Part shown: positions 14,316 through 38,897 of the stretch, in pieces
Layout: the number at the start of each line of letters is the position of its first letter
How positions within the stretch are numbered: the first letter of the stretch is position 1
From: Bacteroidales bacterium
GTDB lineage: Bacteria; Bacteroidota; Bacteroidia; Bacteroidales; NBLH01
Direction of reading: 5' to 3'
Length of the DNA: 56,909 bases
NCBI GenBank assembly: GCA_016937695.1
Contig: JAFGWC010000098.1
Span: 1 to 56,909, forward strand
Position numbers and translations under genes: made by a program
The notes under the pieces: model-generated
What the model saw: only the letters and a program-made list of their open reading frames with translations
Database searches by the model: none
What the model was told of the DNA's origin: nothing

Positions 14316-14897
14316 CTATTCGTCGGTGTTGTCGTCATCGTCTATTTTAACATGTCCCCAATTTTCGCCAGAACGAATTCTGTTTAATTGAGTGTGAGTA
14401 ATACCAAATTCCTTAGCTAATTTATATAGCTTGTTTTTTCCTCTTCTCAACTTCTTTTTAAGCCTAATAACATCAGATTCTGATAGTTTTGCATTAGTAA
14501 TTCGGCCTTTTCTGTTGATGTTTTTGTAATTAGGGTTCTCTTTGTGATGAGCAGTAAGTTCATCTCTTGTAACCCATTTTAGATTAGACGCTTGGTTATT
14601 CTCTTTAAAATAATCAAGATGAACTACATATTCTTGATATTCGCTTGGTTTCTCACAAAAATATTCAGCTACAAGTTTATGAACTATTAAAGTTTTTTTC
14701 TTTTTTTCTTGATTTGTTTTAAAGGTAAAATACCTATATCCATTAACGATTTGAGCTTTTAAAATCACCCAATCACTAATCTTTTTTTTAAATCTTCTAA
14801 TCCGCCCATAATTAGATACTTCGTATTTTTCAATTTCACTAATTCCTTCGAACCAGACTGGCGCCCATTTTTCGTTCCAAAAGTTATTGTTTTCCAT
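14316..14897 (-). CDS. NUMOD4/HNH-like DNA-binding protein
   Basis: A 193-residue protein. The N-terminus WAPVWFEGISEIEKYEVSN followed by YGRIRRF is a NUMOD4 motif, a DNA-binding module of homing endonucleases. The middle (HKLVAEYFC, VVHLDYFKENN, NLKWVT) resembles an HNH core but with HLDY instead of the usual DHIDG, so nuclease activity is doubtful. The C-terminus (LAKEFGITHTQLNRIRSGENWGHV) is a helix-turn-helix. From memory, close relatives are conserved in many Bacteroidota chromosomes, which suggests a domesticated regulator rather than a mobile nuclease. No intron or host-gene interruption is seen here. The gene ends with TAG. Confidence 0.8.
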   Translation of the reverse strand: MENNNFWNEKWAPVWFEGISEIEKYEVSNYGRIRRFKKKISDWVILKAQIVNGYRYFTFKTNQEKKKKTLIVHKLVAEYFCEKPSEYQEYVVHLDYFKENNQASNLKWVTRDELTAHHKENPNYKNINRKGRITNAKLSESDVIRLKKKLRRGKNKLYKLAKEFGITHTQLNRIRSGENWGHVKIDDDDNTDE

Positions 14898-18241: not shown

Positions 18242-19711
18242 TTAAAGAGTTTTTCGCATTCTGGCAACAGGAATATTGAGTTGTTCTCTGTATTTGGCAA
18301 CAGTACGTCTGGCAATTTGATATCCTTTTTCTTGAAGAACTTCAGCAAGTTTTTCATCGGTTAATGGTTTTTTATTGCTTTCGCTACCGATACATTCTTG
18401 AAGTATTTTTTTAATTTCTCTGGTAGAAACTTCTTCGCCGGTGTCTGTTTGCATTCCTTCGGAAAAGAAATATTTTAATGCAAAAATTCCAAAATGTGTT
18501 TGTACATATTTACTATTAACAACTCTTGAAATAGTTGATATATCAAGGTTTGTTTTTTCGGCTATGTCCTTAAGTATCATTGGTCTAAGCTTTGTTTCAT
18601 CACCATCAGAAAAATAAGCATTTTGATATTGAACAATTGCCTCCATAGTGTGCATAAGAGTATTTTGTCTTTGCTTTATAGCATCAATAAACCATTTAGC
18701 CGAATCTAATTTTTGTTTCACAAAAGAAATAGCTTCTTTTTCATGTTTCGAATGCTTATCTTTTTGACTGTGATAAGATTCCAGCATGTTTGCATAAGTA
18801 CGACTAACTTTTAATTCTGGAATATTTTTTGAATTTAAACTAAGAATTAATTCGCCATCGATATTTTCTAATAAAAAATCAGGTGTAATATGTTGAGAAT
18901 TTCTATTTAACGGGTTTGAATATGCGCTACCGGGTTTAGGATTAAGTTTTAAAATTATTTCAATAGCATTTTTCAAATCTTCATCAGACAAATTAAGTTT
19001 TTGAATTATTTTATCGTAATGTTTTTTTGTAAACTCAATAAAAAAATTAGAAATTATTTTATTTGCAAGCTTTAAATATAGGTTCTCTTCGCCATTTAAA
19101 ATTTTAATTTTGTGTTTTAATTGCAAAGCCAAGGATTCTTGTAAATCTCTTGCTCCAACACCCGGCGGGTCAAAATCATGAATAATTTCAAGAATATCAA
19201 GAAGTTCTTTTTCATCTGTTATAATATTTTGAGAAAAAGCAATGTCGTTAGCAATAGCCTCTACATCTCTTCTTAAATAACCATCTTCGTCAATATTTCC
19301 TATTAAATAATCAGCAAGAATTTGTTTTTCGGAGCTTAAAATTCTGAGTCCAAGCTGTTGTTTTAAGTGTTCGTGAAAAGAAGTGCCGGTTGAATATGGA
19401 ATATCAACTTTACGGTCATCAGCAGAATAATTATTGGCAGATAATTTATAATTTGGAGTTTCGTCGTCCTGAATGTAGTCTTCTAAAGTAAATTCATCCT
19501 GGGAGCTATCATATTCATCGTCATCATTATCGTTTTGCTCCTCATACATATCATCTTCTTCTCTGCCTTCTTCTAAAACAGGATTTTCTTCTATTTCTTT
19601 TTTTATCCTTTGCTCAAGCTGAATGGCAGGCACTTCCAACAATTTTATTAATTGTATTTGTTGTGGTGAAAGTTTCTGTATTAATTTCTGTTGTAACCTT
19701 TGATTCAGCAT
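18242..19711 (-). CDS. rpoN: RNA polymerase sigma-54 factor RpoN
   Basis: A 489-residue alternative sigma factor that needs AAA+ enhancer-binding activators. Region I is the Gln/Leu-rich N-terminus (QQKLIQKLSPQQIQLIKLLE), region II the acidic stretch at residues 45-75, and region III includes the core-binding and DNA-binding parts. The RpoN box ARRTVAKYR stands near the C-terminus, in a normal full-length position. No enhancer-binding protein is in the window. It heads a run with three envelope genes. Confidence 0.98.
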   Translation of the reverse strand: MLNQRLQQKLIQKLSPQQIQLIKLLEVPAIQLEQRIKKEIEENPVLEEGREEDDMYEEQNDNDDDEYDSSQDEFTLEDYIQDDETPNYKLSANNYSADDRKVDIPYSTGTSFHEHLKQQLGLRILSSEKQILADYLIGNIDEDGYLRRDVEAIANDIAFSQNIITDEKELLDILEIIHDFDPPGVGARDLQESLALQLKHKIKILNGEENLYLKLANKIISNFFIEFTKKHYDKIIQKLNLSDEDLKNAIEIILKLNPKPGSAYSNPLNRNSQHITPDFLLENIDGELILSLNSKNIPELKVSRTYANMLESYHSQKDKHSKHEKEAISFVKQKLDSAKWFIDAIKQRQNTLMHTMEAIVQYQNAYFSDGDETKLRPMILKDIAEKTNLDISTISRVVNSKYVQTHFGIFALKYFFSEGMQTDTGEEVSTREIKKILQECIGSESNKKPLTDEKLAEVLQEKGYQIARRTVAKYREQLNIPVARMRKTL

Positions 19712-19738
19712 TATATTTGTTCAGTTTATTAATAATAA

Positions 19739-19746
19739 CAAAAGTA
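19739..19746 (-). promoter_or_regulatory. -7 box of rpoN
   Basis: Minus-strand TACTTTTG, 27 bp before the ATG at 19711. Confidence 0.5.
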
Positions 19747-19830
19747 AATTAAAATTTATAAAAAAAAAGTAATGACCATAATAAATAAACAATTCATTAC
19801 AAATTTACAAATAAATGTTAATTTAATGTA

Positions 19831-19860
19831 AAAAAGGCTAAGCTTAAAAAAAGCTTAGCC
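19831..19860. terminator. Intrinsic terminator after the M2-like gene
   Basis: GGCTAAGCTT (19836-19845), 5-nt A loop, AAGCTTAGCC (19851-19860). On the minus strand it is followed by a T-run, so it ends transcription of the M2-like gene before rpoN. Confidence 0.85.
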
Positions 19861-19884
19861 ATAAAAATATAATTTTGCTTTTGA

Positions 19885-21597
19885 TTATTGAAATTTAATA
19901 TATTGTTTAGTAAAATAATCCGGAGATAATTTATCTCCTGTTGCATTTTTAATCCAATCCTGCATATTATATTTTGCTCCTGTTTTAAAAAGCTTTTCAA
20001 TCATAAATTCTCCTACTTTAGGATTATCAATACATTTTGTTTCGCAGCTTCCATCGTTATCTAAAATTTCTTCGTTAATGTATGTATGTATTTGAGAAGC
20101 AATCAATTCTCCCAATAAATAATTATGATAACTGCAAGGCATTGTTGTAATATGGGTTTTAGTAGCCCAATCCGGTTCATTTCTATCTGCAGGTTTATTA
20201 AGCATCTGAAAATTAGATACTAACTGCCACCAAAGCAGATTTAAATCTTGATCAGGATCTTCATAAAATTCTTTTTCAAATCGATACATTACTTGAGCAA
20301 ATCTACTAAAAACAAATTTTTCCAATCTTAATTGCTTAAAGCTAATTTCAATAATTTTATCTTTTTCGGCTTTAGAAATTCCCACTACTTTTTCCAGCCA
20401 TCCCGGATTAATGGAAAATCCGCTAAATAATGTTGCAACTGCATCATTAGCAGTGAATTGAGGCGGTTGGTGAAGTAGGTATGGTAAATCATTATCTATA
20501 TATTTTAAATATGAAGAAAAACCTGCTTCGTAAAGTAAAGTAGTCATTATGGTCATATTATTTTTAATATGACCCGAAATTCTAATATCGCCTTTTCTGT
20601 CTATATCTGTAGTAAAAGCAAGTTCTTGTTTTCCGGGTTTATTAGAAAAATCACTTTTATCAAGAACATCAGAAATATCAAGTCCTATTCCTTTAAAATA
20701 AGTCTTTACAAGTTTAATAAAATCTTTGTTTTTATAATATTTATCAAAATCAGTATCGTAAATTAAAGGAGCTTTTTGAAAAAATCTGTTTTGATAATGC
20801 CATGGTTTTAACTCTTCAACACTTATCTTAAATTTCTTCGCTAAATATTGGTCTATTTCGTCCTTTAGCTCAATGTATGGTCCTCTTGTTAAAATATCCA
20901 ATTCATCAAAAATATTATCAATTTCTTCCGGACTTTGACCATTTATAATCAGTTCCATTTCATAATAATTTTTAAAGCCTAAAGCTTTAGCTGCTTTATT
21001 CCTCATTTTAACGATTTTAATTAAATCGTCGCTAACTAATTTTCCAACTTCTTTGCTTGCCTCCCAGTATTTTTTTAATTCTTCTGTTTTATTTGAAGTT
21101 CTTAAAACGCTTTCAATATCTTCTACACTAACATCCTTTTCATTTATTACAGGACGATATGTTGAAAATTTATGCTTAATTTCATTATCAAGCGTTATTA
21201 ATTCTGATAATAATTTCTCGTCTATTTGGTTTGGAAGATATAAATTGTAAAGAATATTTAATTGCTGAACTAATAACTCATCAGTAATTAAATTAGATTC
21301 TTTAAATCTTTTCAATTGATTGAAATTTTCTTTATTTGAATAGATTTTACTAATCATTATTTTTAATTCTGTTGCTGTATTATATTCTTCGATATTGCCT
21401 GTTATGGCGGCATTATAATCAGCTAGCTTATATTTCTCCTGAAGAGGAATTACCTTATTTTCATAATCTGTGATGAATTCTTTAAATTCGCGATTGATCT
21501 TTTCAATTTCAGTTTCAGCGCAACTTTGCAGCAGCAAAATAAAACCAATTGACGCTAGAAAGACAATTAGTTTAGTTAATTTAAAAATTTTTATCAT
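19885..21597 (-). CDS. M2 (ACE-like) peptidase homologue lacking its zinc ligands; lipoprotein
   Basis: A 570-residue lipoprotein (lipobox LLQSCAET). The overall pattern is that of bacterial M2 dipeptidyl carboxypeptidases: KNYYEMELIINGQSPEEI, WHYQNRFFQKAP, and the C-terminal HNYLLGELIASQIH. The HEXXH zinc site is replaced. TLLYEAGFSSYL aligns with the HHEMGH helix, so Y356 and F360 stand where the two zinc histidines belong. The residue 28 further on, where ACE has its glutamate ligand, is N384. Only the catalytic Glu position (E357) remains. A zinc peptidase activity is therefore very unlikely, and a binding or scaffold role, or a different chemistry, is more plausible. The frame is open and full-length, so this is not a decaying pseudogene. 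Confidence 0.85.
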   Translation of the reverse strand: MIKIFKLTKLIVFLASIGFILLLQSCAETEIEKINREFKEFITDYENKVIPLQEKYKLADYNAAITGNIEEYNTATELKIMISKIYSNKENFNQLKRFKESNLITDELLVQQLNILYNLYLPNQIDEKLLSELITLDNEIKHKFSTYRPVINEKDVSVEDIESVLRTSNKTEELKKYWEASKEVGKLVSDDLIKIVKMRNKAAKALGFKNYYEMELIINGQSPEEIDNIFDELDILTRGPYIELKDEIDQYLAKKFKISVEELKPWHYQNRFFQKAPLIYDTDFDKYYKNKDFIKLVKTYFKGIGLDISDVLDKSDFSNKPGKQELAFTTDIDRKGDIRISGHIKNNMTIMTTLLYEAGFSSYLKYIDNDLPYLLHQPPQFTANDAVATLFSGFSINPGWLEKVVGISKAEKDKIIEISFKQLRLEKFVFSRFAQVMYRFEKEFYEDPDQDLNLLWWQLVSNFQMLNKPADRNEPDWATKTHITTMPCSYHNYLLGELIASQIHTYINEEILDNDGSCETKCIDNPKVGEFMIEKLFKTGAKYNMQDWIKNATGDKLSPDYFTKQYIKFQ

Positions 21598-21898
21598 TTT
21601 ATAAGTATTTATAATTATTACTCAAAATTGTTAATCTCTAATTTAAAAAATATATTTTGAAACTATTAAGATAAGAAAAATTTGCTGAAGTTCAAAATGA
21701 CATGTTGTTAAAATATAATCTGCCCATTTTTTTTAAAATTAATGCCTATTTATATCTTTGCAACTTAAATATAAATAAGTATCAAAAATATAAATTATTT
21801 TTGCAATGATAAATTAAATTTAAATGCTCATAATAAGCAACTTAACTTAAATTTAAAATATTTATCAAATTATTATAAAAGTTATAAAAATATAAAGG
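21598..21898 (+). promoter_or_regulatory. asnS promoter region (divergent intergenic region)
   Basis: This 301-bp gap between the divergent M2-like gene and asnS holds two TAnnTTTG boxes on plus: TATCTTTG at 21753-21760 and TATTTTTG at 21796-21803. Either gives an AT-rich asnS leader of about 90-140 nt. No clear box was seen for the minus-strand M2-like gene, and no hairpin or small gene is evident. Confidence 0.5.
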
Positions 21899-23422
21899 AT
21901 GCAAAAAATTACAATCCAAAATTTAGATAAATATGTTGGCAAAGAAGTAAAAATATCAGGATGGCTAACAAATAAAAGAAGTGGAAAAGGAATTGAATTT
22001 CTGATAGTTAGAGATGGAAGCGGTTTTGTTCAATGTATTGCTGATGAAAATGAAATTGATGCAAAAGTTTTTAATCTAGCCAAATCTTTAAGTCAAGAAA
22101 GTTCTTTCGAATTGAAAGGAACTGTTGTGAAAGATGAAAAACAAATTGGAGGATTTGAAATTCATGTTAAAGATATAAAATTGATTGGCGAATCTGTAAG
22201 CTTTCCAATAACTAATAAGCCTCATGGAGTTGAGTTTCTGATGGATAACAGGCATTTATGGCTTCGCTCTAAAAGACAATGGGCAATTATGCGTGTAAGA
22301 AACAGACTTATTTTTGCAATTCATAATTTTTTCCAAAAAGAAGAATTTGTACAAATGGACGCACCATTTTTTACAGGAAATGCAGTTGAAGGAACTACAA
22401 CTCTATTTGCTACCGATTTTTATGATGATAAAGCATATTTGTCGCAATCCGGTCAGCTTTATGGCGAAGCTATGGCAATGGCAATGGGCAAAATTTATAC
22501 TTTTGGTCCAACTTTTAGAGCCGAAAAATCAAAAACCAGAAGACATTTATCGGAATTTTGGATGATTGAACCGGAAATGGCTTTTTTTGATAATGATATG
22601 AATATGGATTTGATTGAATCATTTATAAAATATATCGTTAAAGATGTTAAAGAAAACTGCAAAGCCGAATTTGAAATTTTAGAAAGAGATACTTCAATAT
22701 TTGACCTCATCATAAAAGATAAGTTTCCACGCTTAACATACGATCAAGCAGCAAAAATACTTATTGGCGAAGAAAAAGTTAATGGAAAAACAACTATAGA
22801 AACATTGGAAAATGATTTTCTTGAAGTATTAAAAAATATAGAAGAAAATCAAAAAGAAATAGAAAGTGCTGAAAATCAGATAAAAGCCGGCGTTAAAAAA
22901 GGTCAAAAAAATTATCTTCAAAATAAAATTGATACAATAAAAAACAATATTAAAGAGCTTGATGAAAAGAAAAAAGTTATCCCACAATGGATAGAATCTG
23001 CAAAGCATTTTAAATACGGTTCAGATTTAGGTGGCTCTGACGAAACTGTTTTAACAAGAATGTTTGATTTACCTGTTATGGTTTACAATTGGCCACACGA
23101 AATTAAAGCATTTTACATGAAACGTGACAAAGAAAATCCGCATTTAGCAAAAGGCGTAGATGTTTTGGCACCTGAAGGTTACGGCGAAGTTGTTGGTGGT
23201 GGCGAAAGAGAAACAAATGAAGAATTGCTGATTGGAAAAATAAATGAACATCAACTGCCAATGAAAGCTTTTGAATGGTATCTTGATTTAAGAAGATATG
23301 GCTCTGTTCCACATGCAGGATTCGGATTAGGCTTAGAAAGAATGGTGGCTTGGATTTGTAAGCTCAAACACATTAGAGAAACCATTCCGTTTCCAAGAAT
23401 GTACGGAAGATTATTTCCTTAA
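21899..23422 (+). CDS. asnS: Asparaginyl-tRNA synthetase
   Basis: Class II aminoacyl-tRNA synthetase. An N-terminal OB fold (VKISGWLTNKRSGKGIEFL) is followed by the catalytic core with motif 2 (FRAEKSKTRRHLSEFWMIEPE) and motif 3 (GFGLGLERMVAWI). At 507 residues it is about 40 longer than the E. coli enzyme. The extra length is a charged helical insertion at about residues 310-360, rich in Glu and Lys, typical of Bacteroidota AsnRS. Monocistronic, with a hairpin terminator at 23431. Confidence 0.97.
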   Translation: MQKITIQNLDKYVGKEVKISGWLTNKRSGKGIEFLIVRDGSGFVQCIADENEIDAKVFNLAKSLSQESSFELKGTVVKDEKQIGGFEIHVKDIKLIGESVSFPITNKPHGVEFLMDNRHLWLRSKRQWAIMRVRNRLIFAIHNFFQKEEFVQMDAPFFTGNAVEGTTTLFATDFYDDKAYLSQSGQLYGEAMAMAMGKIYTFGPTFRAEKSKTRRHLSEFWMIEPEMAFFDNDMNMDLIESFIKYIVKDVKENCKAEFEILERDTSIFDLIIKDKFPRLTYDQAAKILIGEEKVNGKTTIETLENDFLEVLKNIEENQKEIESAENQIKAGVKKGQKNYLQNKIDTIKNNIKELDEKKKVIPQWIESAKHFKYGSDLGGSDETVLTRMFDLPVMVYNWPHEIKAFYMKRDKENPHLAKGVDVLAPEGYGEVVGGGERETNEELLIGKINEHQLPMKAFEWYLDLRRYGSVPHAGFGLGLERMVAWICKLKHIRETIPFPRMYGRLFP

Positions 23423-23430
23423 TAATTAAA

Positions 23431-23458
23431 AACCTCGTGAAAATTCACGAGGTTTTTT
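23431..23458. terminator. Bidirectional terminator shared by asnS and the glycosyltransferase
   Basis: CCTCGTGAA / TTCACGAGG with flanking A/T runs. The stop codon of the convergent minus-strand glycosyltransferase (23445-23447) lies inside the hairpin. Confidence 0.85.
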
Positions 23459-24665
23459 TGTTTGTAAATATCTGCGTCCAAATTTTTTCCAGTTTTTTAG
23501 ATTCAATCTCCCAAGAAAGTTTTTTTGAATAATTAAATCTTTCTTCTTTTTTTGAACGTATTTGTTCTTTTTCTTTTATGATAATTCGTAATTTATTAGC
23601 AATATCATTTATTTCAGATCTTGTAAGAATTCCTAAATCAGGATGTTCTGATATAAATTTATTTTGAGCCTGAGTATTTGTTGCTAAAATAAATAATCCG
23701 GCTTGTGCGTAAGAAAAAATTTTGTTCGATAAAGCAATTTCATTATTAAAATCTTTACCTGGCTCTATTGCCAAACCAATATCAAATTCAGAAACTTGTA
23801 AATTAAGCTCTGTTTGAGTTAATGGTGGAATTATTTCAATAAAATCGTCATATTTATTTAAAATTTCTTTACTAAAACCATCTCTTAAATTTCCGATAAG
23901 AGCTAAAGATATTTCATCTTTAAAATTATAGAATATAGGAATAAAAATTTCCAAACCTCTTCCATAATCAATGTTTTGCGAAAACCAAACGAATTTTAGC
24001 TTTTCAGTATTATTTTCAACATGTTTGAATTCTTTTTCAGAAAAACAGTTGTTAATAAGCTTATTATCAGGCATTTTACTGCCTTTTAATAAATCTAAAC
24101 TAAATTTCCCTATTAATGGCGAAGCATAAGTAATAAAATCGGCTTTTGGTAAAATATTTTTGAATAAAAACTTTCGTCTTTCAATTTCTTTTTTCTCTGA
24201 AACAGCTTCGCCGGGATGATAATCTTCAATATCAAAAATAAAAGGCGTTTTATGTTTTTTTGAAAATTTATATGCAGGAAATAAAGCAGGCAGATTGTGT
24301 GCTATAATTAAATCGTATTTTTTTTTCTTTTTTAGATTTCTATTCAGCAAAAATGAACGTTTTGAGTGAGCAAATGCTGCAATTATTAAAGATTTTGGGA
24401 AAATAAAAAATAATTTCTGAGCTAATTTTTCGATAATTGAACTAAAAAACCAAATAAAAAGCGGTTTCCTGTATGCAGAAATATATTCAAAATTCGCATT
24501 AATTTTTGTAATTATTTCTTTGTCAATTTTATCGCTCCAATTGTCAAAACTAAATCCGACAAAATCAACATCATATCCCAAACTAACAGCAAATTTAAGC
24601 TCTTTAAGCAAACGCGGATTAGTTGTTAAATTATCTTTTGATATGAAGAGGAGTTTTTTAGACAT
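23445..24665 (-). CDS. Glycosyltransferase (GT4-like), end of polysaccharide operon
   Basis: A 406-residue GT-B fold enzyme. The N-terminal Rossmann half begins KLLFISKDNLTTNPRLLKE, as in family 4-like Bacteroidota glycosyltransferases of lipopolysaccharide and capsule clusters. The C-terminal half has FDIGLAIEPG, ALSNKIFSYAQAGLFILAT, the nucleotide-sugar binding part. No signal peptide, so it acts at the cytoplasmic membrane face. It overlaps the upstream glycosyltransferase by 8 bp, and its stop lies within the terminator hairpin that ends the locus. Confidence 0.85.
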   Translation of the reverse strand: MSKKLLFISKDNLTTNPRLLKELKFAVSLGYDVDFVGFSFDNWSDKIDKEIITKINANFEYISAYRKPLFIWFFSSIIEKLAQKLFFIFPKSLIIAAFAHSKRSFLLNRNLKKKKKYDLIIAHNLPALFPAYKFSKKHKTPFIFDIEDYHPGEAVSEKKEIERRKFLFKNILPKADFITYASPLIGKFSLDLLKGSKMPDNKLINNCFSEKEFKHVENNTEKLKFVWFSQNIDYGRGLEIFIPIFYNFKDEISLALIGNLRDGFSKEILNKYDDFIEIIPPLTQTELNLQVSEFDIGLAIEPGKDFNNEIALSNKIFSYAQAGLFILATNTQAQNKFISEHPDLGILTRSEINDIANKLRIIIKEKEQIRSKKEERFNYSKKLSWEIESKKLEKIWTQIFTNKKTS

Positions 24666-25797
24666 TTAAGTTTTTATTTATAATTCTTTCAATTCTCACA
24701 ATTTGTTTTTCATAAGTATTATCCAATGCGAAATCAATCCGTTTTTCCATAAATTCTTTGCTATTATAGAACTCTAAATTGTCTATTATCTTTTTAAATA
24801 AATTATTAATTTCAAAATCATTATCAGACATTAATATTAAATCATTAAAGCTCTTATAATGAGATATTTCATTTGAAAAAACTACAATTCCCGTAGCTAA
24901 ATACTCAATTATTTTATGTGAATTAGACCTGTCGGAAGTAAGTTTATCTTCAATATAAAATAAAATAAAAATATCTATATCTTTTATTTCTAAAATTAGC
25001 TCTTGTTTTGTTTTATTTCCATGCAAAAAAACATTCTCTTTAGTTTTTAAATACTCAATAAAATAAGGTTCATTATCTTCATCTCCAGACAAATTATTAT
25101 TGTTGGAATATGGTCCCCAAAAGTGAAATTCGATACTTTTATTATTATCAATTAAGTTAATAAATCTATTTTTATCAATAATTGGTCTTGTAAGATTTCC
25201 TATGTATCCAACTCTAATTTTATCTGCTTTTTTATATTGATTTTCTAGAATTCTTTTTTCGGCAAAGCTTTTAAAGTTATTATTCAATCCATGGTTTATA
25301 AGAAATTTGTTTGTTTTAATATTTTTAAATTTAGATAAAATATTTTCAGAAACAGAAAGAACAATATCTGCTGTTTTTGCCGGATTAATCTGATACTTAT
25401 AATTAACCGGATCAACAGGATGGTATATTGAATATTTTGCATTAAATAATTTCAAATCAGAAAATAAATTAAACTCAAAGCACCAAACAATATCTATCTC
25501 ACTATCAATTAATTTCAGGATTTTTTTTATTTGAAATTTCATTAAAAAATCGAATAAAAATCTAAAGTGAAATCTAATTTTAAAATTAAAATAAGGTTTA
25601 TAGTTAATCTGATATAAGTTTTTATAGTTAGTTTCTTTAATTTCAATTAAATTTTTTAATTTTTTTTGTGGTGGGTTTAAAAAATATACAATATTTTTTC
25701 TTTTAACTAATTCAATTGCATAGTGATGTTTTGAAATATGCAGTTCTCCCCATTGATTTGGTGAAATAATTAAAATATTTTTGTTTTGAAAAATCAC
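24658..25797 (-). CDS. Glycosyltransferase, GT-B type
   Basis: A 379-residue protein in the polysaccharide operon. The start is uncertain: the GTG at 25797 overlaps the WbpG stop as GTGA and is preferred, while a TTG at 25818 gives seven more residues. The first ATG is about 90 codons in, too late for the fold. LIISPNQWGELHISKHHYAIEL is typical of the N-terminus of sugar transferases in capsule loci, and the C-terminal HKIIEYLATGIVVFSNEISHYK is the sugar-nucleotide-binding region with the conserved Glu. Acceptor and donor are unknown. Confidence 0.8.
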   Translation of the reverse strand: MIFQNKNILIISPNQWGELHISKHHYAIELVKRKNIVYFLNPPQKKLKNLIEIKETNYKNLYQINYKPYFNFKIRFHFRFLFDFLMKFQIKKILKLIDSEIDIVWCFEFNLFSDLKLFNAKYSIYHPVDPVNYKYQINPAKTADIVLSVSENILSKFKNIKTNKFLINHGLNNNFKSFAEKRILENQYKKADKIRVGYIGNLTRPIIDKNRFINLIDNNKSIEFHFWGPYSNNNNLSGDEDNEPYFIEYLKTKENVFLHGNKTKQELILEIKDIDIFILFYIEDKLTSDRSNSHKIIEYLATGIVVFSNEISHYKSFNDLILMSDNDFEINNLFKKIIDNLEFYNSKEFMEKRIDFALDNTYEKQIVRIERIINKNLNV

Positions 25798-26960
25798 TTT
25801 AATATTCTTTTTATCCAATCGCCGATAGGTTTTAAAGGTTTTAAAACAGGATGATTTAAATAAATAGCTTGCTCTGTTTTAAATTCGCTATGCTCTCTAC
25901 GTTCTTGGCTTAGATAACTTTCAAACTCCTGAACATAAAAGCCTAATTTTTTCAATACAAACTCCTTATCTTCTTGGCATTGTGCTTTATCATAATTTGG
26001 ATTTTCTAATTCTTTTAAAGCCTCTTCTTTTGTAATTTGACCGGAACAAATAAGATTTGATAAATGAGCTTTTCTTTTATCAATTCCGAATTTTTGAGGT
26101 AAAATATAACCTTGATAAAAGCGTGTGAATATTGATTCAAAGTGTTTTCCCCCATAATCTTCCCAATTCAACTCTTTTTTAATCAATTGTTTAACTTCTG
26201 TTTTTATATATGGTATAAAATTTAACAAATCAATGGTGCTAATACCTTTAACTTGTTGATAAAAATGTTTTTCTTTAAAACCAAAAAAAGGGAATGTTTT
26301 TAAAGGTAAAGTTCCATAATGTTTGTGAATATCTTTAATATTAACATAATCAGCTTTATTAAAAATCCAATGTTTCGGCAAAAGAGATTCAGTTACAACA
26401 TTATTACCTGAAAGAATATATTTGATATTATTTTTATTAGCTATTTTGTATATTGTTCCAAATATGGCATGATCTGTAATCATTTCAATATCAATTACAT
26501 TTGCTTTAAAAAAAGCAAGTTGAATATCTCTAAATTCATTCCAATTTATAACATAGGTTTCTAAATCAAAATTAAGTTTTGTAACAATATTTTCTATGTT
26601 TTTAACAGCAAGTTCAGAATTCCATCCATTGTCAAAATGGACACAAAGCACTCGTAACCCTTCTGCTTTTGCAATATATGCTAAATAAGAACTATCAACA
26701 CCACCACTAACTCCTAAAATACAATCATACTTTTTACCTTTGCCTTCATTTTTAATTTTTTGAATGCTTTCTTTAAATTTTTGTATTCCTCTTTTTCCTT
26801 TATAAACATGCTTTGCTTCTTCGATAAAATATTCGTGATAATAATTACAAACACCATTTTCATCAAATGTAATATTTGGGTCGGCAATATTATCCATTAC
26901 TGTTTTTGTGCATTGTTGATAGTTTTTAGGTATGTATTTTGGATTTACTATGTGTTTCAT
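25794..26960 (-). CDS. wbpG: N-acetyl sugar amidotransferase (WbpG/LegN-like)
   Basis: A 388-residue PP-loop ATPase. The motif SGGVDSSYLAYI (S85 to S91) binds ATP and adenylates the substrate. The N-terminus CTKTVMDNIADPNITFDENG matches the family (TIGR03573-like). In Pseudomonas aeruginosa O5, WbpG with the HisH and HisF paralogues converts an acetamido group into an acetamidino group on a nucleotide sugar. HisH (28703) and HisF (27892) homologues lie upstream, but a toxin-antitoxin pair separates them. The ATG overlaps the AbiEii stop as ATGA. Confidence 0.92.
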   Translation of the reverse strand: MKHIVNPKYIPKNYQQCTKTVMDNIADPNITFDENGVCNYYHEYFIEEAKHVYKGKRGIQKFKESIQKIKNEGKGKKYDCILGVSGGVDSSYLAYIAKAEGLRVLCVHFDNGWNSELAVKNIENIVTKLNFDLETYVINWNEFRDIQLAFFKANVIDIEMITDHAIFGTIYKIANKNNIKYILSGNNVVTESLLPKHWIFNKADYVNIKDIHKHYGTLPLKTFPFFGFKEKHFYQQVKGISTIDLLNFIPYIKTEVKQLIKKELNWEDYGGKHFESIFTRFYQGYILPQKFGIDKRKAHLSNLICSGQITKEEALKELENPNYDKAQCQEDKEFVLKKLGFYVQEFESYLSQERREHSEFKTEQAIYLNHPVLKPLKPIGDWIKRILK

Positions 26961-27601
26961 GTTTTTAATTGATTATTAATATAATTATTAAAAGCATCTA
27001 TTATCGAAAATTTTACTGTTGTCCAATCTACTTTTTTTAAAGTTGTTGGGTCAAATTCTAACTCACAGTCTTTAGAGAAAAAAGTTATATTTTCAAGAAC
27101 TTGTTTAATATCATTATAAGGATATTTTTTAGAATAAAATTTTAGAAGCTCAACTAAGGTATATTTGTTAAGTAATTCAGCAATATCATAAAAGTCTTTT
27201 TTTGTGTTTCTTGATGTTATTGCTTCTAATTTCATAGCAGCAATATCTTCAATATGAGCAAACCTTATATTATCTTCAATGATTATTGGTTTTATAAATT
27301 TATCGGTTTGCATTACATCAATTTTTAATTCTTTTTTGTTCTCGTCTTTAATATAAAATGTAATGCCAAAAACAAATGTTCGTATTTCTGCTTTAGTATA
27401 TATTTTCCTTATTATTTTTGCAAAATCATTTACATTAAACTCAATATCTGAAAATAAATCAATATCAATACTTTGTCTGTGTCCAAGTTGTAAACTTAAA
27501 CCTGTTCCACCTGCTAATCTAAAGTTTTTAAATTCTTTCATTAGCATTAAATCCTTTAATATTTTGTATAAGAATGGCGTTGTTGTTTGTTTAAATAGCA
27601 T
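26957..27601 (-). CDS. AbiEii/AbiGii-type nucleotidyltransferase toxin
   Basis: A 214-residue protein of the AbiEii/AbiGii nucleotidyltransferase family, DNA polymerase beta fold. The motif LAGGTGLSLQL, then HRQSIDIDLF (D46, D48), gives the two metal-binding aspartates. Related toxins act by adding nucleotides, for example to tRNA acceptor ends, and stop growth. The partner is the DUF6922 protein upstream, overlapping by 46 bp. The stop overlaps the wbpG start as ATGA, so the toxin and a polysaccharide enzyme are translationally joined. Confidence 0.88.
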   Translation of the reverse strand: MLFKQTTTPFLYKILKDLMLMKEFKNFRLAGGTGLSLQLGHRQSIDIDLFSDIEFNVNDFAKIIRKIYTKAEIRTFVFGITFYIKDENKKELKIDVMQTDKFIKPIIIEDNIRFAHIEDIAAMKLEAITSRNTKKDFYDIAELLNKYTLVELLKFYSKKYPYNDIKQVLENITFFSKDCELEFDPTTLKKVDWTTVKFSIIDAFNNYINNQLKT

Positions 27602-27861
27602 GCGAAATTATTTTTTTTTAATTTAAAAAAAGCTGCTGCAAAATGTAAAGTTTTTTCTTTAAGATATACTGTATTTGTTAAAGTTTTAATTGCTTTTTGT
27701 TTACCAAAGTATTTTACAACATTAATAACATCAGCAAATGTGCCATATTCAAAAACCTTTTTTATAATAAATTCAGGGTAATTATCAACTTCTGTCATTA
27801 ATTTTTCAAAATCAACATCCCAAAATGCTTTAGGTGATATTTCTAAGATATTTTTTTGCAT
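27556..27861 (-). CDS. DUF6922-type putative antitoxin
   Basis: A 101-residue protein. The FWDVDFEKL start, the ERG- or EYG-type segment (KVFEYGTFADVINVVKYFG) and the CY near the C-terminus match DUF6922 proteins. These usually precede AbiEii-like toxins and are presumed antitoxins. It is the first gene of the pair and overlaps the toxin by 46 bp. It starts 30 bp after hisF. Confidence 0.75.
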   Translation of the reverse strand: MQKNILEISPKAFWDVDFEKLMTEVDNYPEFIIKKVFEYGTFADVINVVKYFGKQKAIKTLTNTVYLKEKTLHFAAAFFKLKKNNFACYLNKQQRHSYTKY

Positions 27862-27891
27862 TTTTTTAATTCATTGGTTATTGTACCAAAG

Positions 27892-28665
27892 TTAAGAAAT
27901 TTTGTTGAATAATTTTTCTATTAGCTCATTTTGCGAAGGGTAATTAATTAAAACTCCTTTATTTGTACTTTTATAAACAAACATTGAACCTGCCGCAACA
28001 GCAGATGCGCCACCGTTTATTACTGCATTTATAAAATCATCAATATTTTTAGCCCCTCCGTTTGCAACTACCGGAATATTAACTGCATGTGATACTTTTT
28101 TTAATAAATCAATATCATATCCGCCAAAAGTTCCTTCTTTTTCAATTGATGTTAAAATAAGTTCGCCTGCACCTCTGTTTTCAAGCATTTTTAAATAATC
28201 GTGCATATTTTGCCGTACTTTTGTTTTCCCTGAATTTGAAAAACATCTGTATTTTCCAAAAAAATCTTTTTTTACGTCAACAGATACGACTATGCTTTGA
28301 TTTCCAAAAATATTCGCTGCTTTAGTAATTAAATCAGGGTTTTTATAACCAACAGAGTTTATAATTATTTTTTCAACTCCAATATTGAAAATTTTTTTTA
28401 TCTGATCTATGTTTTTTATACCACCGCCATAAGCTAATGGCATAAAGCATTCTGAGGCTATTTCTTCGATAATTTTGTAATTAGGCTCATTGTGTAATTT
28501 TGTAGCTTCAATATCAAGAAAAACTAGTTCGTCAACTTCTTTTTCGTTAAAAATTTTTACAGCATTAATTGGGTCGCCAATATAATTTGGCTTTTTAAAC
28601 TTTATCGTTTTTACAAGGCCGCCATTTTTAAGAAGCAGAACAGGAATTACTCTTATTCTATTCAT
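27892..28665 (-). CDS. HisF-like amidation protein (WbuZ-type)
   Basis: A 257-residue TIM barrel. The start at the ATG at 28665 gives MNRIRVIPVLLLKNGGLVKT, the usual start of WbuZ-type HisF paralogues of polysaccharide loci; an in-frame TTG at 28716 would overlap hisH and is unlikely. Phosphate-binding motifs near VVANGGAKN and AVAAGSMF, and IVVSVDVKKD, are visible. With HisH it should deliver ammonia to the WbpG-catalysed reaction. Histidine biosynthesis is unlikely since no other his gene is present. Confidence 0.9.
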   Translation of the reverse strand: MNRIRVIPVLLLKNGGLVKTIKFKKPNYIGDPINAVKIFNEKEVDELVFLDIEATKLHNEPNYKIIEEIASECFMPLAYGGGIKNIDQIKKIFNIGVEKIIINSVGYKNPDLITKAANIFGNQSIVVSVDVKKDFFGKYRCFSNSGKTKVRQNMHDYLKMLENRGAGELILTSIEKEGTFGGYDIDLLKKVSHAVNIPVVANGGAKNIDDFINAVINGGASAVAAGSMFVYKSTNKGVLINYPSQNELIEKLFNKIS

Positions 28666-28702
28666 TAGCTTAAATTGATATGATGTTAAAAAATAAAAAT
28701 AT

Positions 28703-29323
28703 TTAATAATTTTCAATAAAGTTCCTTAAAATTTGCATTCCAAATTTATGGCTTTTTTCAGGGTGAAATTGCACACCAACAATATTATCTTTTTCCAACC
28801 CAACAGTAAAGGTATATCCATAAGTGGTTGTTGCCAAGATGTTTTCTGCATTTCCTGTTTTTACATGATATGAATGAACGAAATAAAATCGAGAAGGAAT
28901 TTCATACATGTTTTTAAAAAGTTTTGACTCTTTATTATATTCAACTTCATTCCATCCCATATTTGGAATTTTATAATTCTCAGGCAAAAGTTTTTTATTA
29001 AAAGCTATAGTTTCTGCATCAAGCCATGCAAGACCTTTTTTATTGCCTTCTTCACTACCTTTTGTAAAAAGCTGCATTCCTAAACAAATTCCCAAAATTG
29101 GTGTTTTTTCGTCTAAAACTTTTTTATTTAAAACCGGTATTAATCCGGAATTTTCAAGTTGTTCCATGCCGTAATTAAAAGAACCAACTCCGGGCAAAAT
29201 AAGTTTATCGGCAGCTTCAATAGATTCAATTTTATTCGAAATTATTGATTTTACACCGATTTTTTTTAGCATATTTTGTATTGAGCGGACATTCCCGGCT
29301 TTGTAGTCTATAATTGTGAGCAT
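28703..29323 (-). CDS. HisH-like glutamine amidotransferase
   Basis: A 206-residue class I glutamine amidotransferase that releases ammonia from glutamine for HisF/WbpG. The catalytic nucleophile is in ILGICLGMQLF (Cys), with VGVQFHPEKS (His, Glu) completing the triad; LILPGVGSFNYGM is the oxyanion strand region. The start overlaps the glycosyltransferase stop by one base (TAATG). It is in the polysaccharide cluster, so a sugar-amidation role is favoured over histidine synthesis. Confidence 0.92.
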   Translation of the reverse strand: MLTIIDYKAGNVRSIQNMLKKIGVKSIISNKIESIEAADKLILPGVGSFNYGMEQLENSGLIPVLNKKVLDEKTPILGICLGMQLFTKGSEEGNKKGLAWLDAETIAFNKKLLPENYKIPNMGWNEVEYNKESKLFKNMYEIPSRFYFVHSYHVKTGNAENILATTTYGYTFTVGLEKDNIVGVQFHPEKSHKFGMQILRNFIENY

Positions 29324-30579
29324 TATGCGTTTGCTAAAATATTTGTATATACTTCTTTAATTTTTTGTGAAAACATTTTCTCTCCGTAAATGTCAATACA
29401 ATTATTTCTAATATTTTCTCTATTAAAAATTTTTAAATTATTGTAAATAAACCTCATTCCTTTTGCTAAAGAGTCTATATCACCATTTTCTACAAGTATT
29501 CCGTTTGTATCATTTATTATGCTTTCAGGTCCTCCGCATTTTGTTGAAATAACAGGTAATCCTCTTGCCAATGCTTCAATAATTGCAACCCCGAATGTTT
29601 CATATTTGCTTGAAAAAACAAATACATCTGCATTATCGAGTTGTTTAATAATATCTTGCCTTGATAATTGAACTATAATTTCAACTTGGTTTTGAATTCC
29701 TAAATCAAATGTAAGCTTTATTAATTCATTTTGTAACAATCCTCCGCCAATAATCTTTAGTTTTACGTTAGTTCCTTTAAATTTGTTTGAAAAAGCATTA
29801 ATTAAATCAGCTTGTCCTTTTATTTCGATAAATGTTCCGATATTTATAAAGACAAAACCTTCTTTATCGCTCTTAACCATAGGTGCATTAATGAAATCAT
29901 TGTCTAATACATTTGGAATATATTTATAAGATTTACTCTCTTTGAATTTATAATAGAGTAATTCACTCAAACTTTCACTTACGGTAATTAATTCATTCAA
30001 ATTATAAAACGATTTTTCAATTTTTGAAAGAGTAAAAGAACCATAAAGTTCTCTGTAATAATATGAACTGTGCTCAGTAACAACAACAGGAATATTGTAT
30101 TTCTTTTTTATTTTAGAAGATAATATTCCTGCATATACCATATTATGTGCGTGAATAATATCCGGTTTTCCGTATGTGTATATATATTTCTCAAATGCTT
30201 TTAATCCGCCTTTTATCCAACCTTTATATTCATTTTTAGAAGATAAAAATAATTGGTAAGATGATTCAATTCGGATTACAGGAATATCATCAACTTCATC
30301 AATTTTAATATATTTTTTTATTGAAAAAGTTTTAAAAAATAAAGTTTTGAAAATAAACTTAAAGTCTTTTTGTTTTAGGTCATTTTCAAAATCAATTCTT
30401 ATCAATTTAAAAAAAATTGCTTTCAAAAGCATTATTACCGAATATTTCAAACTAACTGAAATTATTCCAATTTTGAATCCTTTAGATTTAAGAATTAATG
30501 CTTGGTCTCTTTGGAAAATTCCTTGTAACGAATTTTCATCGGGAATATATTGCTCGGAAGGAATTATTAAAATGTGCAT
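29323..30579 (-). CDS. Glycosyltransferase family 4
   Basis: A 418-residue GT-B enzyme. Central domains: HAHNMVYAGILSS (N-terminal acceptor half) and VFVFSSKYETFGVAIIEALARGLPVISTKCGGPES, the classical GT4 C-terminal E-x7-E signature (ETFGVAIIEALA). Cytoplasmic, with no signal peptide. Overlaps its neighbours by single bases (TAATG at both ends), showing tight translational coupling with the methyltransferase upstream and hisH downstream. Confidence 0.9.
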   Translation of the reverse strand: MHILIIPSEQYIPDENSLQGIFQRDQALILKSKGFKIGIISVSLKYSVIMLLKAIFFKLIRIDFENDLKQKDFKFIFKTLFFKTFSIKKYIKIDEVDDIPVIRIESSYQLFLSSKNEYKGWIKGGLKAFEKYIYTYGKPDIIHAHNMVYAGILSSKIKKKYNIPVVVTEHSSYYYRELYGSFTLSKIEKSFYNLNELITVSESLSELLYYKFKESKSYKYIPNVLDNDFINAPMVKSDKEGFVFINIGTFIEIKGQADLINAFSNKFKGTNVKLKIIGGGLLQNELIKLTFDLGIQNQVEIIVQLSRQDIIKQLDNADVFVFSSKYETFGVAIIEALARGLPVISTKCGGPESIINDTNGILVENGDIDSLAKGMRFIYNNLKIFNRENIRNNCIDIYGEKMFSQKIKEVYTNILANA

Positions 30580-31370
30580 TATACTTCATTAACTTTTTTA
30601 CAAACAATAATTTCTGTTGAACGTGTTTCTTTAAATATCAATAAAGAAATTATTTCGAAAGGATAAATGATTAATCCGATTAAACCTGCAAATTTTGGAA
30701 ATTTATAAATTAATCTTGAAATAACCGGAAATGAATATTTTTGAATGATATTATTTGGATAGAAAACAGTATTCATCAAGTAAAACATTGGTCGTGTAAA
30801 TTGAACTTCAAATCCGTTATTTTTTAAAATCTGCAAAACAAATTCTTTGCTTCGGCAAACTTGGTGTATAATTCTGAACTCTTTATTTTCTCGAATAAGA
30901 TTGTCGGAAAAAATTAATATTCCGGTATTTGAAAGCATTCGATTAATGTTTTTAAATGCTTCGTTATATTTATCATCATCTGTGATATGATAAAGAACAT
31001 CAAAAGCTGAAATAATGTCAAATTTATTATCAATAATTAAATCTTTTGAGCTAATATCTGACTGATAAAAAAAAAATTTAGAATCGGTGAATATTTCTTT
31101 TAATTTTGTTACTGCATGGTTTGTAATGTCGAAACCTGTAACAGATTTTGCTTTTTTCCACAAATTAATGAAAAAACCTGTTCCCGCACCAATGTCGGCA
31201 ACATGTTTATCGTATAATTTAATATTAAGTTTTTTGATAATTCTTTTAAAAGCAAATCTTCTAACTTTATATAAGTAATTATTGTATTTTCCTAACGTGA
31301 TATCGCCTACTCCGATAATCGAGTAATGTTGTGATAATCTTTCTTCCCAGTATTTTTCAGGATTAAACAT
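30579..31370 (-). CDS. SAM-dependent class I methyltransferase
   Basis: A 263-residue protein with the SAM-binding glycine motif VADIGAGTGFFINLW (residues about 57-71) and a following acidic GFDIT. The AFDVLYHI and SNTGILIFSDN segments are the usual post-I motifs. It probably methylates a sugar or an acceptor in the polysaccharide locus; the substrate is unknown. One-base overlap with the next gene. Confidence 0.82.
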   Translation of the reverse strand: MFNPEKYWEERLSQHYSIIGVGDITLGKYNNYLYKVRRFAFKRIIKKLNIKLYDKHVADIGAGTGFFINLWKKAKSVTGFDITNHAVTKLKEIFTDSKFFFYQSDISSKDLIIDNKFDIISAFDVLYHITDDDKYNEAFKNINRMLSNTGILIFSDNLIRENKEFRIIHQVCRSKEFVLQILKNNGFEVQFTRPMFYLMNTVFYPNNIIQKYSFPVISRLIYKFPKFAGLIGLIIYPFEIISLLIFKETRSTEIIVCKKVNEV

Positions 31371-31390
31371 ATAATATCTATTTTTATAAA

Positions 31391-32281
31391 TTACAGATCT
31401 AAGGATGTTAATTTAGAATTTGGGCAAATTAAATAGTTATGACCATTACTTGAAATTCCGAGATGATTAATTTTTTGCATTTCTTCACTTTCTAAAAAGT
31501 GAAAAAATGTGTATGAATTATAATCGAACAACGTTTCTATTTTTTTACCGATATTTTCGTTCTGTATTTCAAGCAAAATAATTGGTTGATGAACATAAAG
31601 ATATTTTCCATAACCAACTAAAACTTCGTATTCATTTGTTTCAACATCCATTTTTATTAAATCTATATTTTTAATATTGTTTTCTTCAATAAAATTAGAC
31701 AATGTTATAACATCAACTTCAATAGAGTGCTGATTTTCGGGCCTCCATTCTTTATTAAGGCTACCTGCTGTTGTACTATTGTCTTCAAAAGTTTTATCAC
31801 CATAATTATAAAATTGTGCTGTTCCATTGAAATTGGATAAAGCTTTATTTATACACTTAATATTCATTTTATTAATCTGAATATTTTTGGTTAATATGTT
31901 AAAAATATTTGGTTGAGGTTCAAAAGCAATAACATTTGATTTTTTATTTGAGACTTTAGATATTAAGCTATAAACACCTGTATTAGAGCCAATGTCCAAA
32001 ATATTATCAGCAAATCTTGATAATTTCATCCAAACCATTCTTTCCTTTTGTTCCCATTCCAAATTATTTAAACCGACCCAAAAAATATTGCTTTCAAGGT
32101 CGAAGTTATTATTGTATAAAAAAAACGAGGAATTCTTATTTACTTTACATTTAAACTTTCCAATAAATGAGTAGTTCATATAGTATTTTAGCTTTGTGTC
32201 ACTTAATATTAACCTTGAAAATTTAAAAATAATATATCTTAATTTATTATTTTTCATTAATAATCTTAAATACTTTTTCAT
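31391..32281 (-). CDS. FkbM-family methyltransferase
   Basis: A 296-residue SAM-dependent methyltransferase. ILDIGSNTGVYSLI is the SAM-binding motif, FEPQPNIFN the acidic strand-2 motif, and LIKMDVETNEYEVLVG the FkbM signature (KxDVE-x-x-E). In the family it methylates a sugar hydroxyl, common in O-antigen clusters. It sits between two transferase genes, all on minus. Confidence 0.88.
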   Translation of the reverse strand: MKKYLRLLMKNNKLRYIIFKFSRLILSDTKLKYYMNYSFIGKFKCKVNKNSSFFLYNNNFDLESNIFWVGLNNLEWEQKERMVWMKLSRFADNILDIGSNTGVYSLISKVSNKKSNVIAFEPQPNIFNILTKNIQINKMNIKCINKALSNFNGTAQFYNYGDKTFEDNSTTAGSLNKEWRPENQHSIEVDVITLSNFIEENNIKNIDLIKMDVETNEYEVLVGYGKYLYVHQPIILLEIQNENIGKKIETLFDYNSYTFFHFLESEEMQKINHLGISSNGHNYLICPNSKLTSLDL

Positions 32282-32315
32282 AGTTAATTTATATTATTTG
32301 TAGAATATACATTTA

Positions 32316-33134
32316 TTATTTTCTAATAAAAAAATGTAATATTGTTCGAAATTTATTTTTAAGATAACTTTTTTTAATCTTGTTCTGTATTATTTCAATT
32401 TCCTTTCGAGTTAAGGGACAAAATTTAGAATTAACTGCATTTTCAAAAACTTCATCTCTTAGTTTATTATACAAATCAGCATACTCACTTTTTGATTCTT
32501 GCCCGTTATGGACTCTGTCCCAAACTAAATCTCTTGGAAATTTAACCAAAGGAAACCGTGCTCCAATTTTAAACCAAAATTCATAGTCGCCAATCATTCT
32601 TTTTCCGCTAAAACCGCCTACAATTTTAAATGCTTCAAGATTTATAATTGAAGAACCCGGAGCTCTGTCAAAATGAGCAAACTTTTCGAAATGTTCTAAA
32701 TATGTTTCTTTGGGTTTTGTTATTGAAGGAAATGGTTTGTTGGAAAAATTATGAGAAGATAGTCCAAAACCTGCTTCCGGGAATTGTTCCATTGCCCAAA
32801 ACATAACTTGTAATCCGTGAGGATAAATGTAATCATCAGAGTCTAAATACTTTATATATTTCCCTTTTGCATAACTTGCTGCCATATTTCTGTTTGGATA
32901 ATCGCCTAAATTTTTTTCATTTATATAAACTTTTATCCTTTTATCTTTCTCTGCGTATGATTTTGCAATTTCAACAGTTTTATCAATAGAACAATCATCA
33001 ACAATAATAAGTTCCCAATTTTGGTATGATGAGGCAATTACGCTTTCAATTGCTTCGCCGATATATTTTTCGCGATTGAATGCTGTCATTAAAACGCTTA
33101 CAAATGGTTGAAATTCCATGATTTCTGACATCAT
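32316..33134 (-). CDS. Glycosyltransferase family 2
   Basis: A 272-residue GT-A enzyme starting at the ATG at 33134 or the next codon at 33131; an in-frame TTG at 33182 would overlap the upstream gene and is not favoured. PFVSVLMTAFNREKYIGEAI is the typical GT2 N-terminus, LIIVDDCSIDKTVEIA contains the first acidic motif, and YIKYLDSDDYIYP the DxD. Transfers a sugar from a nucleotide donor to the growing polysaccharide at the inner membrane. Confidence 0.88.
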   Translation of the reverse strand: MMSEIMEFQPFVSVLMTAFNREKYIGEAIESVIASSYQNWELIIVDDCSIDKTVEIAKSYAEKDKRIKVYINEKNLGDYPNRNMAASYAKGKYIKYLDSDDYIYPHGLQVMFWAMEQFPEAGFGLSSHNFSNKPFPSITKPKETYLEHFEKFAHFDRAPGSSIINLEAFKIVGGFSGKRMIGDYEFWFKIGARFPLVKFPRDLVWDRVHNGQESKSEYADLYNKLRDEVFENAVNSKFCPLTRKEIEIIQNKIKKSYLKNKFRTILHFFIRK

Positions 33135-33153
33135 AATTAATAATGCATTTTTC

Positions 33154-34110: not shown

Positions 34111-34120
34111 TATATTGATA

Positions 34121-34897: not shown

Positions 34898-34899
34898 TT

Positions 34900-35928: not shown

Positions 35929-35949
35929 AATATAAAATAAATCACAGCT

Positions 35950-38863: not shown

Positions 38864-38897
38864 AAAATCTAACAATTAGCTAATTTTTTAGGATTTT
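38864..38897. terminator. Terminator-like inverted repeat between convergent genes
   Basis: AAAATCTAA and TTAGGATTTT pair with one bulge, followed by T-runs. The right arm is inside the last codons of the M1 gene, which ends at 38880 with TAG. Confidence 0.5.

Follow-up and report, generated by a model that had tools for sequence, protein, structure and literature searches.

Genomic context of the M2-like gene

The window, by which we mean the whole 56,909-nucleotide stretch of contig JAFGWC010000098.1 from a Bacteroidales bacterium, carries at 19885..21597 a gene for a lipoprotein of the M2 (ACE) peptidase family that has none of the zinc ligands of that family. The frame is open through 570 codons plus the stop, as a reading of the sequence alone had held, and lies on the minus strand, as do all features given below by residue. 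Downstream are rpoN, a gene for a small protein without a Pfam match, and a gene for an LD-carboxypeptidase of family S66. The divergent gene on the upstream side is one that we take to encode asparaginyl-tRNA synthetase.

Between the M2-like gene and rpoN stands a hairpin resembling an intrinsic terminator (19836..19860, minus strand; 10-bp stem, loop of 5, T tail), identified as a consensus match only. It suggests that the M2-like gene forms a transcription unit of its own. The interval 19600-22000 contains three terminator-like sites, two of which are one repeat counted on both strands; shuffled sequence has 0.5 such sites on average (sd 0.8). Close to the 3′ end of the gene's coding region (19922-19938), a perfect inverted repeat of 7 bp is terminator-like on both strands. 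An upstream scan for a Bacteroidota-type promoter motif gave a half-site only.

Farther out in the window we noted, all on the minus strand, a 193-aa open frame with a NUMOD4 motif (14316-14897), similar to one near the homologous gene of another locus in our survey (L146); a 1274-aa restriction-modification protein (51210-55034) with Eco57I-type methylase, DUF7149, DUF7814 and TaqI_C domains; and a long same-strand run of open frames (23445-37257) that includes at least one group-1 glycosyltransferase (29323-30579) and is perhaps a surface polysaccharide cluster.

The protein and its predicted fold

The Pfam model Peptidase_M2 (PF01401) matches the window protein with 89 bits against a cut-off of 23 (E=3.8e-25). 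Weaker Pfam matches to M32 and M3 also exceed their own cut-offs, and an NCBIfam search returned no model at E<=0.001. An AlphaFold2 model, computed with 11 relatives in the input, has a mean pLDDT of 89.6 and a pTM of 0.87. The solved structures ranked first by Foldseek for this model are Drosophila AnCE and human ACE (E about 4e-18, TM 0.82). A second structure aligner, which matched it to ACE and ACE2 chains, gave a top Z of 37.4 for ACE2 over 529 residues at 2.4 Å, and the alignment to ACE/ACE2 spans residues 32-570. As modelled, the protein is a complete M2 (ACE) fold, and the earlier description of a full-length M2 homologue with its fold segments kept agrees with both the Pfam match and the predicted fold.

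The N-terminus carries a hydrophobic signal sequence of the lipoprotein type (21520..21597, minus strand), which reads by eye as ending in LLLQSC with the cysteine at position 26; the lipoprotein signal had likewise been noticed at the outset. The Cys26 column is conserved in relatives with and without the zinc site. Counting only proteins longer than 545 aa, a cysteine falls within residues 11-50 in 13 of 13 proteins of the window's type and in 122 of 124 intact relatives.

Homologue survey

Homologues are termed P-type when the site reads Y-E-x-x-(F/I)...D and intact when it reads HExxH...E. The genome searches draw on samples, and the P-type counts are lower bounds. The first search covered 99 sampled genomes, including the window's own, of which 29 had a match; the loci from this sample contained 28 family members, 14 P-type and 14 intact. 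An order-level search reached 87 of 393 genomes at E<=1e-30, and all its matches were read except an N-terminal piece (G616:C139). At class level 134 of 395 genomes matched at E<=0.001, many of them weakly, and 30 loci were read; at phylum level 40 of 395 genomes matched, and 30 of the 40 places were read. The search of contigs from named genomes took in the best 80 of 567 relatives. In some rows of the order search (L171 and L180 among them) stops were counted within matches of the intact family, of which some may be the final stop.

A family frame could be read at 260 loci, which collapsed to 193 distinct proteins (an earlier set went from 140 to 125). Two weak matches whose frames belong to other peptidases (L030, L031) were left out of the family counts, and L261 and L262 were placed outside the P-type, intact and distant groups in the column comparison. 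The distant M2 proteins used below, 31 in number, are part of those found in the class and phylum searches.

The distinct homologues comprise 173 with HE..H...E, 18 with YE..F...D, one with YE..I...D and one fragment without the site. None of the 192 readable distinct proteins has just one or two of the ligands replaced, and the distant M2 proteins are intact without exception (31/31). P-type genes occur in at least 17 sampled genomes from nine families of the window's order (f1, f17, f18, f32, f57, f58, f77, f85 and f176), and in these families all matches covering the site are P-type. Among the best 80 of 567 named relatives, nine contigs carry P-type genes; all are Bacteroidales or Bacteroidetes assemblies, two being labelled Rikenella microfusus and Acetofilamentum sp. 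The close intact relatives (141 distinct proteins) come mostly from Bacteroidota, also from Ignavibacteriota, Calditrichota and others. The window protein is 35-47% identical to the 14 intact relatives with which it was aligned.

The zinc site

In HMMER alignments the segment Y356-E-A-G-F360 of the window protein sits on HEMGH of human ACE. Tyr356 (20530..20532) replaces the first zinc histidine, ACE His383; the column holds Tyr in all 19 P-type proteins and His in all intact relatives, close (141/141) and distant (31/31). Phe360 (20518..20520) replaces the second, ACE His387, and is Phe in 18 P-type proteins and Ile in one, against His in 141/141 and 31/31. The Glu between them, the general base of HExxH, is kept (E357, 20527..20529; Glu in 19/19 P-type, 141/141 intact and 31/31 distant proteins).

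The sequence-only reading had named Y356, F360 and N384 as the three replacements, at the spacing of 28 expected from the first His to the Glu. Its letters are correct and both histidines are indeed replaced, but the third ligand column is the next one. There D385 (20443..20445) replaces ACE Glu411, with Asp in 19/19 P-type and Glu in 141/141 close intact proteins. The family alignment rules out N384 (20446..20448) as the third ligand, this position lying outside the ligand column; it is Thr in 140 of the 141 close intact proteins and, in P-type proteins, Asn in 13, Ala in four, Ile in one and Ser in one. The spacing of 28 is that of ACE and had to be given up for this bacterial family, in which it is 29 in 138 of the 141 close intact relatives (30 in two, 31 in one) and, between the first and third ligand columns, in all 19 P-type proteins.

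The window protein thus has Tyr, Phe and Asp for His, His and Glu and retains the catalytic-base Glu; the HExxH and third-ligand Glu that define an M2 zinc peptidase are absent (YEAGF, D385). A scan of the whole protein found no HExxH elsewhere. Its same-genus relatives, at 65-69% identity, also have no zinc ligands, and the homologues with intact ligands form a separate group; neither of the two observations that could have overturned the earlier reading was made.

Origin and conservation of the P-type proteins

A tree of 123 rows places the 14 P-type rows together within the close intact group, set off by a branch with SH-aLRT 100. They again form a single clade when eleven trait-linked columns are masked (96 rows: 14 P-type, 82 intact), and with twelve columns masked under a simpler model (17 P-type, 141 intact) P is one clade at SH-aLRT 100. 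All of these trees are quick searches without bootstrap and omit the fragments L010 and L029; L027, L028, L011 and L238 have long branches in them. On these trees the P type is derived a single time from an intact enzyme. The position of the P clade, among intact relatives from bacteria, argues for a loss of the zinc ligands separate from that in the inactive M2 proteins of animals.

Of the 570 reference positions, 119 show at least 94% conservation among the 141 intact proteins. In the 19 P-type proteins, 61 of these columns have an unchanged letter at this threshold, 55 have become relaxed, and the other three are fixed for a different letter. These three are positions 356, 360 and 385, the zinc ligands, and no other position shows a fixed switch. 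With the columns treated as exchangeable, the chance of drawing the ligand triple among the 119 is 1 in 273,819. Apparent fixed differences at 241, 392 and 427 in the first sample fell below the 94% level in the larger comparison, and R334, which seemed specific to the P type among the first 28 proteins, proved to be shared, with Arg in 61 of the 141 intact ones. Tyr356 is encoded by TAC in 11 P-type genes and by TAT in eight, so it is the residue that is conserved there and not the DNA.

Values of dN/dS could be obtained for eight of the 17 P-type pairs above 60% identity and range from 0.054 to 0.136, six of them at dS 1.3-2.7, which is near saturation; the 25 intact pairs listed give 0.029-0.110. 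Two P-type pairs at dS of about 0.22 have 0.135-0.136, higher than intact pairs at dS 0.32-0.43 (0.061-0.105), and one of these P-type pairs includes a split-frame copy (L254). Mean identity is 0.48 within the P type, 0.554 within the intact group and 0.437 between the two.

Frames of 558-574 aa are present in 13 of the 19 P-type proteins, from eight of the nine families. Three others are cut by contig ends (L004, L006, L029), and that of L011 (f18) stops at query residue 537. Two copies, L010 (G004) and L254 (G571), are in split frames, their N-terminal pieces having been matched separately. The genomes of these two are rated 59% and 73% complete, and the splits may be either assembly error or decay. 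In G004 the N- and C-terminal parts of the P-type gene (L010/L146) lie in different frames.

Substrate-pocket residues

PMC9796954 describes how ACE contacts its ligands: Gln281, Lys511 and Tyr520 hold the terminal carboxylate, His353 and His513 bind the P1′ carbonyl, and Tyr523 and Glu384 contact the zinc-binding group. The three carboxylate residues are all kept in the window protein: Q274 (20776..20778; Gln in the 18 of 18 P-type proteins with letters there), K480 (20158..20160; Lys in 19/19) and Y490 (20128..20130; Tyr in 19/19). So are H482 (20152..20154), equivalent to His513, and Y493 (20119..20121), equivalent to Tyr523, each in 19/19 P-type proteins. All five are also invariant in the close (141/141) and distant (31/31) intact proteins. 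The general-base Glu and the Tyr523 and His513 equivalents expected of an M2 enzyme are therefore present and invariant (E357, Y493, H482).

The equivalent of His353, which an M2 enzyme should also have, is absent. Its column is Leu326 in the window protein (20620..20622) and L, V, M, T, F or Q in other P-type proteins; His is found in one of the 18 with letters there, against 141/141 and 31/31 intact proteins. The P-type pocket is accordingly an altered one, since this substrate-binding histidine is lost in 17 of 18 and W350, T384 and other residues near the site have changed. At K427 (20317..20319) Lys is invariant in the P type (19/19), while the intact column has Gln in 126, Met in 10, Thr in two and Glu, Lys and Ala in one each; Lys427 of the window protein aligns with a Lys of ACE.

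Against the background of conserved columns, keeping six of seven pocket residues has p 0.065, and keeping all six when His353 is left aside has p 0.016. The retention of the pocket lends support to peptide binding, as far as residue conservation can speak for it, and stops short of proof because six of seven is barely above background.

Copy number, other peptidases and recurrent neighbours

One M2 gene was seen in the window genome. The 17 P genomes show P-type M2 only, with one gene each except for two in G082 and two in G571. Searches with the window protein, with the P-type alignment and with the Pfam profile, whose coverage of the genomes was uneven, detected no intact M2 beside the P type in these 17. 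The scan with the Pfam M2 profile took in 18 genomes (the 17 and G006) and missed the P-type copies of G001, G090 and G537 and one copy each in G082 and G571. This profile would be expected to detect an intact copy more readily than a P-type one, because the one intact relative scanned, L013, scores 99 bits with it and the five P-type proteins scanned score 62-89. Given the uneven coverage, the missed P-type copies and the rating of five of the 17 genomes as less than 90% complete, it is likely, though not proved, that these genomes have no intact copy. In the genomes that carry it, the P-type protein seems to take the place of the intact enzyme, as the searches detected no further M2 there. 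The possibility that it is a paralogue kept beside an intact copy was considered and dropped, none having been seen in the 17 genomes within the limits of the searches.

The gene was not found by protein, P-alignment or Pfam-profile search in G006, a genome of the same genus that is 97% complete. The two P-type copies in G082 (L020, L032) and in G571 (L165, L254) differ from each other, and both genomes belong to f77; the double copies are a duplication that followed the loss of the zinc ligands.

Genes for two M3-family proteins with HExxH motifs and for one M1 protein with HELSH...E are still present in the window genome. The window itself encodes, at 38880-40748 (minus strand), an M1-family peptidase whose site reads HELSH...E and whose C-terminus bears a Por-type sorting domain, which points to export by the type 9 route.

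Neighbours were compared between 16 P-type loci (the window and 15 others) and 78 intact loci, a set in which some genomes are counted twice and many contigs are short. The P-type gene is followed by rpoN in five of the 16 (the window, L146, L148, L033 and L037), from two families (L037 is of f57). The remaining shared neighbours do not extend beyond the window's genus or recur at only one or two loci. A gene that presumably encodes cysteinyl-tRNA synthetase adjoins the intact gene in 17 of 78 loci. No neighbour that would link the P-type gene to peptide uptake was found among the 16 loci. We rejected functional linkage through neighbours: with rpoN in 5/16 and the others so limited, no operon function is indicated.

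Interpretation

That the window protein belongs to a group of conserved, non-proteolytic lipoproteins is well supported by these comparisons, because 19 distinct proteins from nine families form one clade, their dN/dS is well below 1 and no other M2 was detected in their genomes. Beyond this, we lean modestly towards a periplasmic or surface lipoprotein of M2 fold that would be free of zinc, would not cut by the M2 mechanism and would still take a peptide C-terminus in the old S2′ pocket. In such a protein Y356 and F360 would occupy the zinc cavity, and the hydroxyl of Tyr356, near E357 and D385, would replace the polar contact of zinc with the peptide carbonyl. Q274, K480 and Y490 would grip the carboxylate at the end of the peptide in the manner of ACE Gln281, Lys511 and Tyr520, and H482 and Y493 would contact the peptide backbone. 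The protein may then capture oligopeptides or protein ends as a receptor, chaperone or feeder and not as an enzyme. A non-proteolytic surface or periplasmic protein, perhaps a peptide binder or scaffold, had been proposed from the window's sequence; the first part of that proposal has gained good support, and the kept carboxylate residues make the binder more specific, though still inferred. Several observations speak against a binder: the pocket is altered, the invariant E357 and D385 have no obvious need in a pure one, the gene is missing from G006, split in L010 and L254 and short in L011, the neighbours show no tie to peptide uptake, and M3 and M1 peptidases with HExxH are still encoded in the genome.

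Inactive peptidase homologues often serve as scaffolds or regulators. The P-type fold could accordingly bind another protein, such as an active peptidase or an outer-membrane protein, with the old pocket merely structural. This is the foremost alternative, if a rather improbable one. The relaxation of 55 of the 119 strongly conserved columns would suit it, and so would the animal protein ACN-1, which is needed although activity was never shown in the account of it in PMC9518657. It sits poorly with the invariance in the P type of the residues on the side of the C-terminal carboxylate, and the neighbour that recurs most often, rpoN (five of 16 loci, two families), is implausible as a partner.

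A bolder version of events would make Y/F/D a new site and no relic, belonging either to a metal-free or different-metal enzyme or to a receptor for peptide C-termini with the Tyr hydroxyl in place of zinc, that displaced the parent enzyme in nine families; we hold this to be doubtful. Its purely catalytic form, in which E357 and D385 together with H482, Y493 and Y356 act as a metal-free acid-base hydrolase or as a metal site that prefers oxygen ligands, seems decidedly unlikely. All five residues are invariant in 19/19 P-type proteins, and the third ligand has turned to Asp and never to a neutral residue, which speaks for it. Against it, the His353 equivalent is lost and the predicted model carries no metal. 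We know of no precedent in M2 for a site re-tooled in either way.

The same gaps that trouble a binder would favour a gene in decay, its enzyme having lost function: same-genus G006 lacks it, two of 19 P-type copies are in split frames with one more short at the C-terminus, and P-type proteins are more diverged among themselves (0.48) than intact ones (0.554). Yet dN/dS of 0.05-0.14, frames of 558-574 aa in 13/19 and eight of nine families, and the sharing of the three replacements by all 19 proteins (one has Ile for Phe) leave decay only a slim chance. It is unlikely, because of the dN/dS values and the constraint on the replaced positions, even if it finds support in places, in the split copies L010 and L254 and in the lack of the gene in G006. 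An alignment artefact or a sequencing error, with an intact site elsewhere or the window misread, can be neglected, there being no HExxH in the window protein and the same letters in independent genomes.

Comparison with known M2 proteins

The nearest comparison for the window protein is with the close intact M2 relatives, which have the same lipoprotein Cys and the same pocket residues and differ in keeping HExxH...E and the His353 equivalent, intact in 141/141. Human ACE, Drosophila AnCE and ACE2 share the fold of the window protein (Foldseek E 3.9e-18 and TM 0.82 to AnCE) at 14-18% identity, and the window protein has neither their zinc ligands nor their His353. The equivalents of ACE Gln281, Lys511, His513, Tyr520, Tyr523 and Glu384 are kept in it. 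The bacterial family has one residue more than ACE between the first His and the Glu. XcACE of Xanthomonas is a periplasmic bacterial ACE homologue described as functional (PMC3235092).

M2 homologues regarded as non-peptidases have been described in animals, namely Caenorhabditis elegans ACN-1 and Drosophila Ance-2 to Ance-5, in the case of ACN-1 for want of zinc ligands (PMC9518657). For ACN-1 it has been speculated that the protein binds and sequesters substrates; its loss is lethal, and its biochemistry had not been done (PMC9518657). The window protein, an M2 homologue without zinc ligands, is of the ACN-1 kind in this sense. ACN-1 and Ance-2 to Ance-5 are animal proteins, however, and Ance-2 to Ance-5 are duplicates beside the active Ance and Acer, whereas no intact M2 was detected in the 17 P genomes. 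Mammalian ACE3 is another M2 homologue, predicted to be inactive (PMC1925091). With HQMGH it keeps the His ligands and has the catalytic Glu changed, and the P-type proteins are the reverse.

Among its top-ranked matches, a literature search returned nothing on a bacterial M2 homologue or clade without zinc ligands. Zinc-less M2 proteins are already known in animals, and the bacterial clade is new as far as those matches show. An automatic metallopeptidase label taken from a family match would mislead for the P group. What an ACE fold does once zinc is gone could be put to the test with a bacterial protein. The bacterial clade offers a clear record for this, with one origin, the three ligand switches alone fixed, the equivalents of the residues that grip the peptide end kept and no parent enzyme detected. 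The protein is carried by inheritance in a lineage of mostly uncultured bacteria and probably binds peptides and does not cut them.
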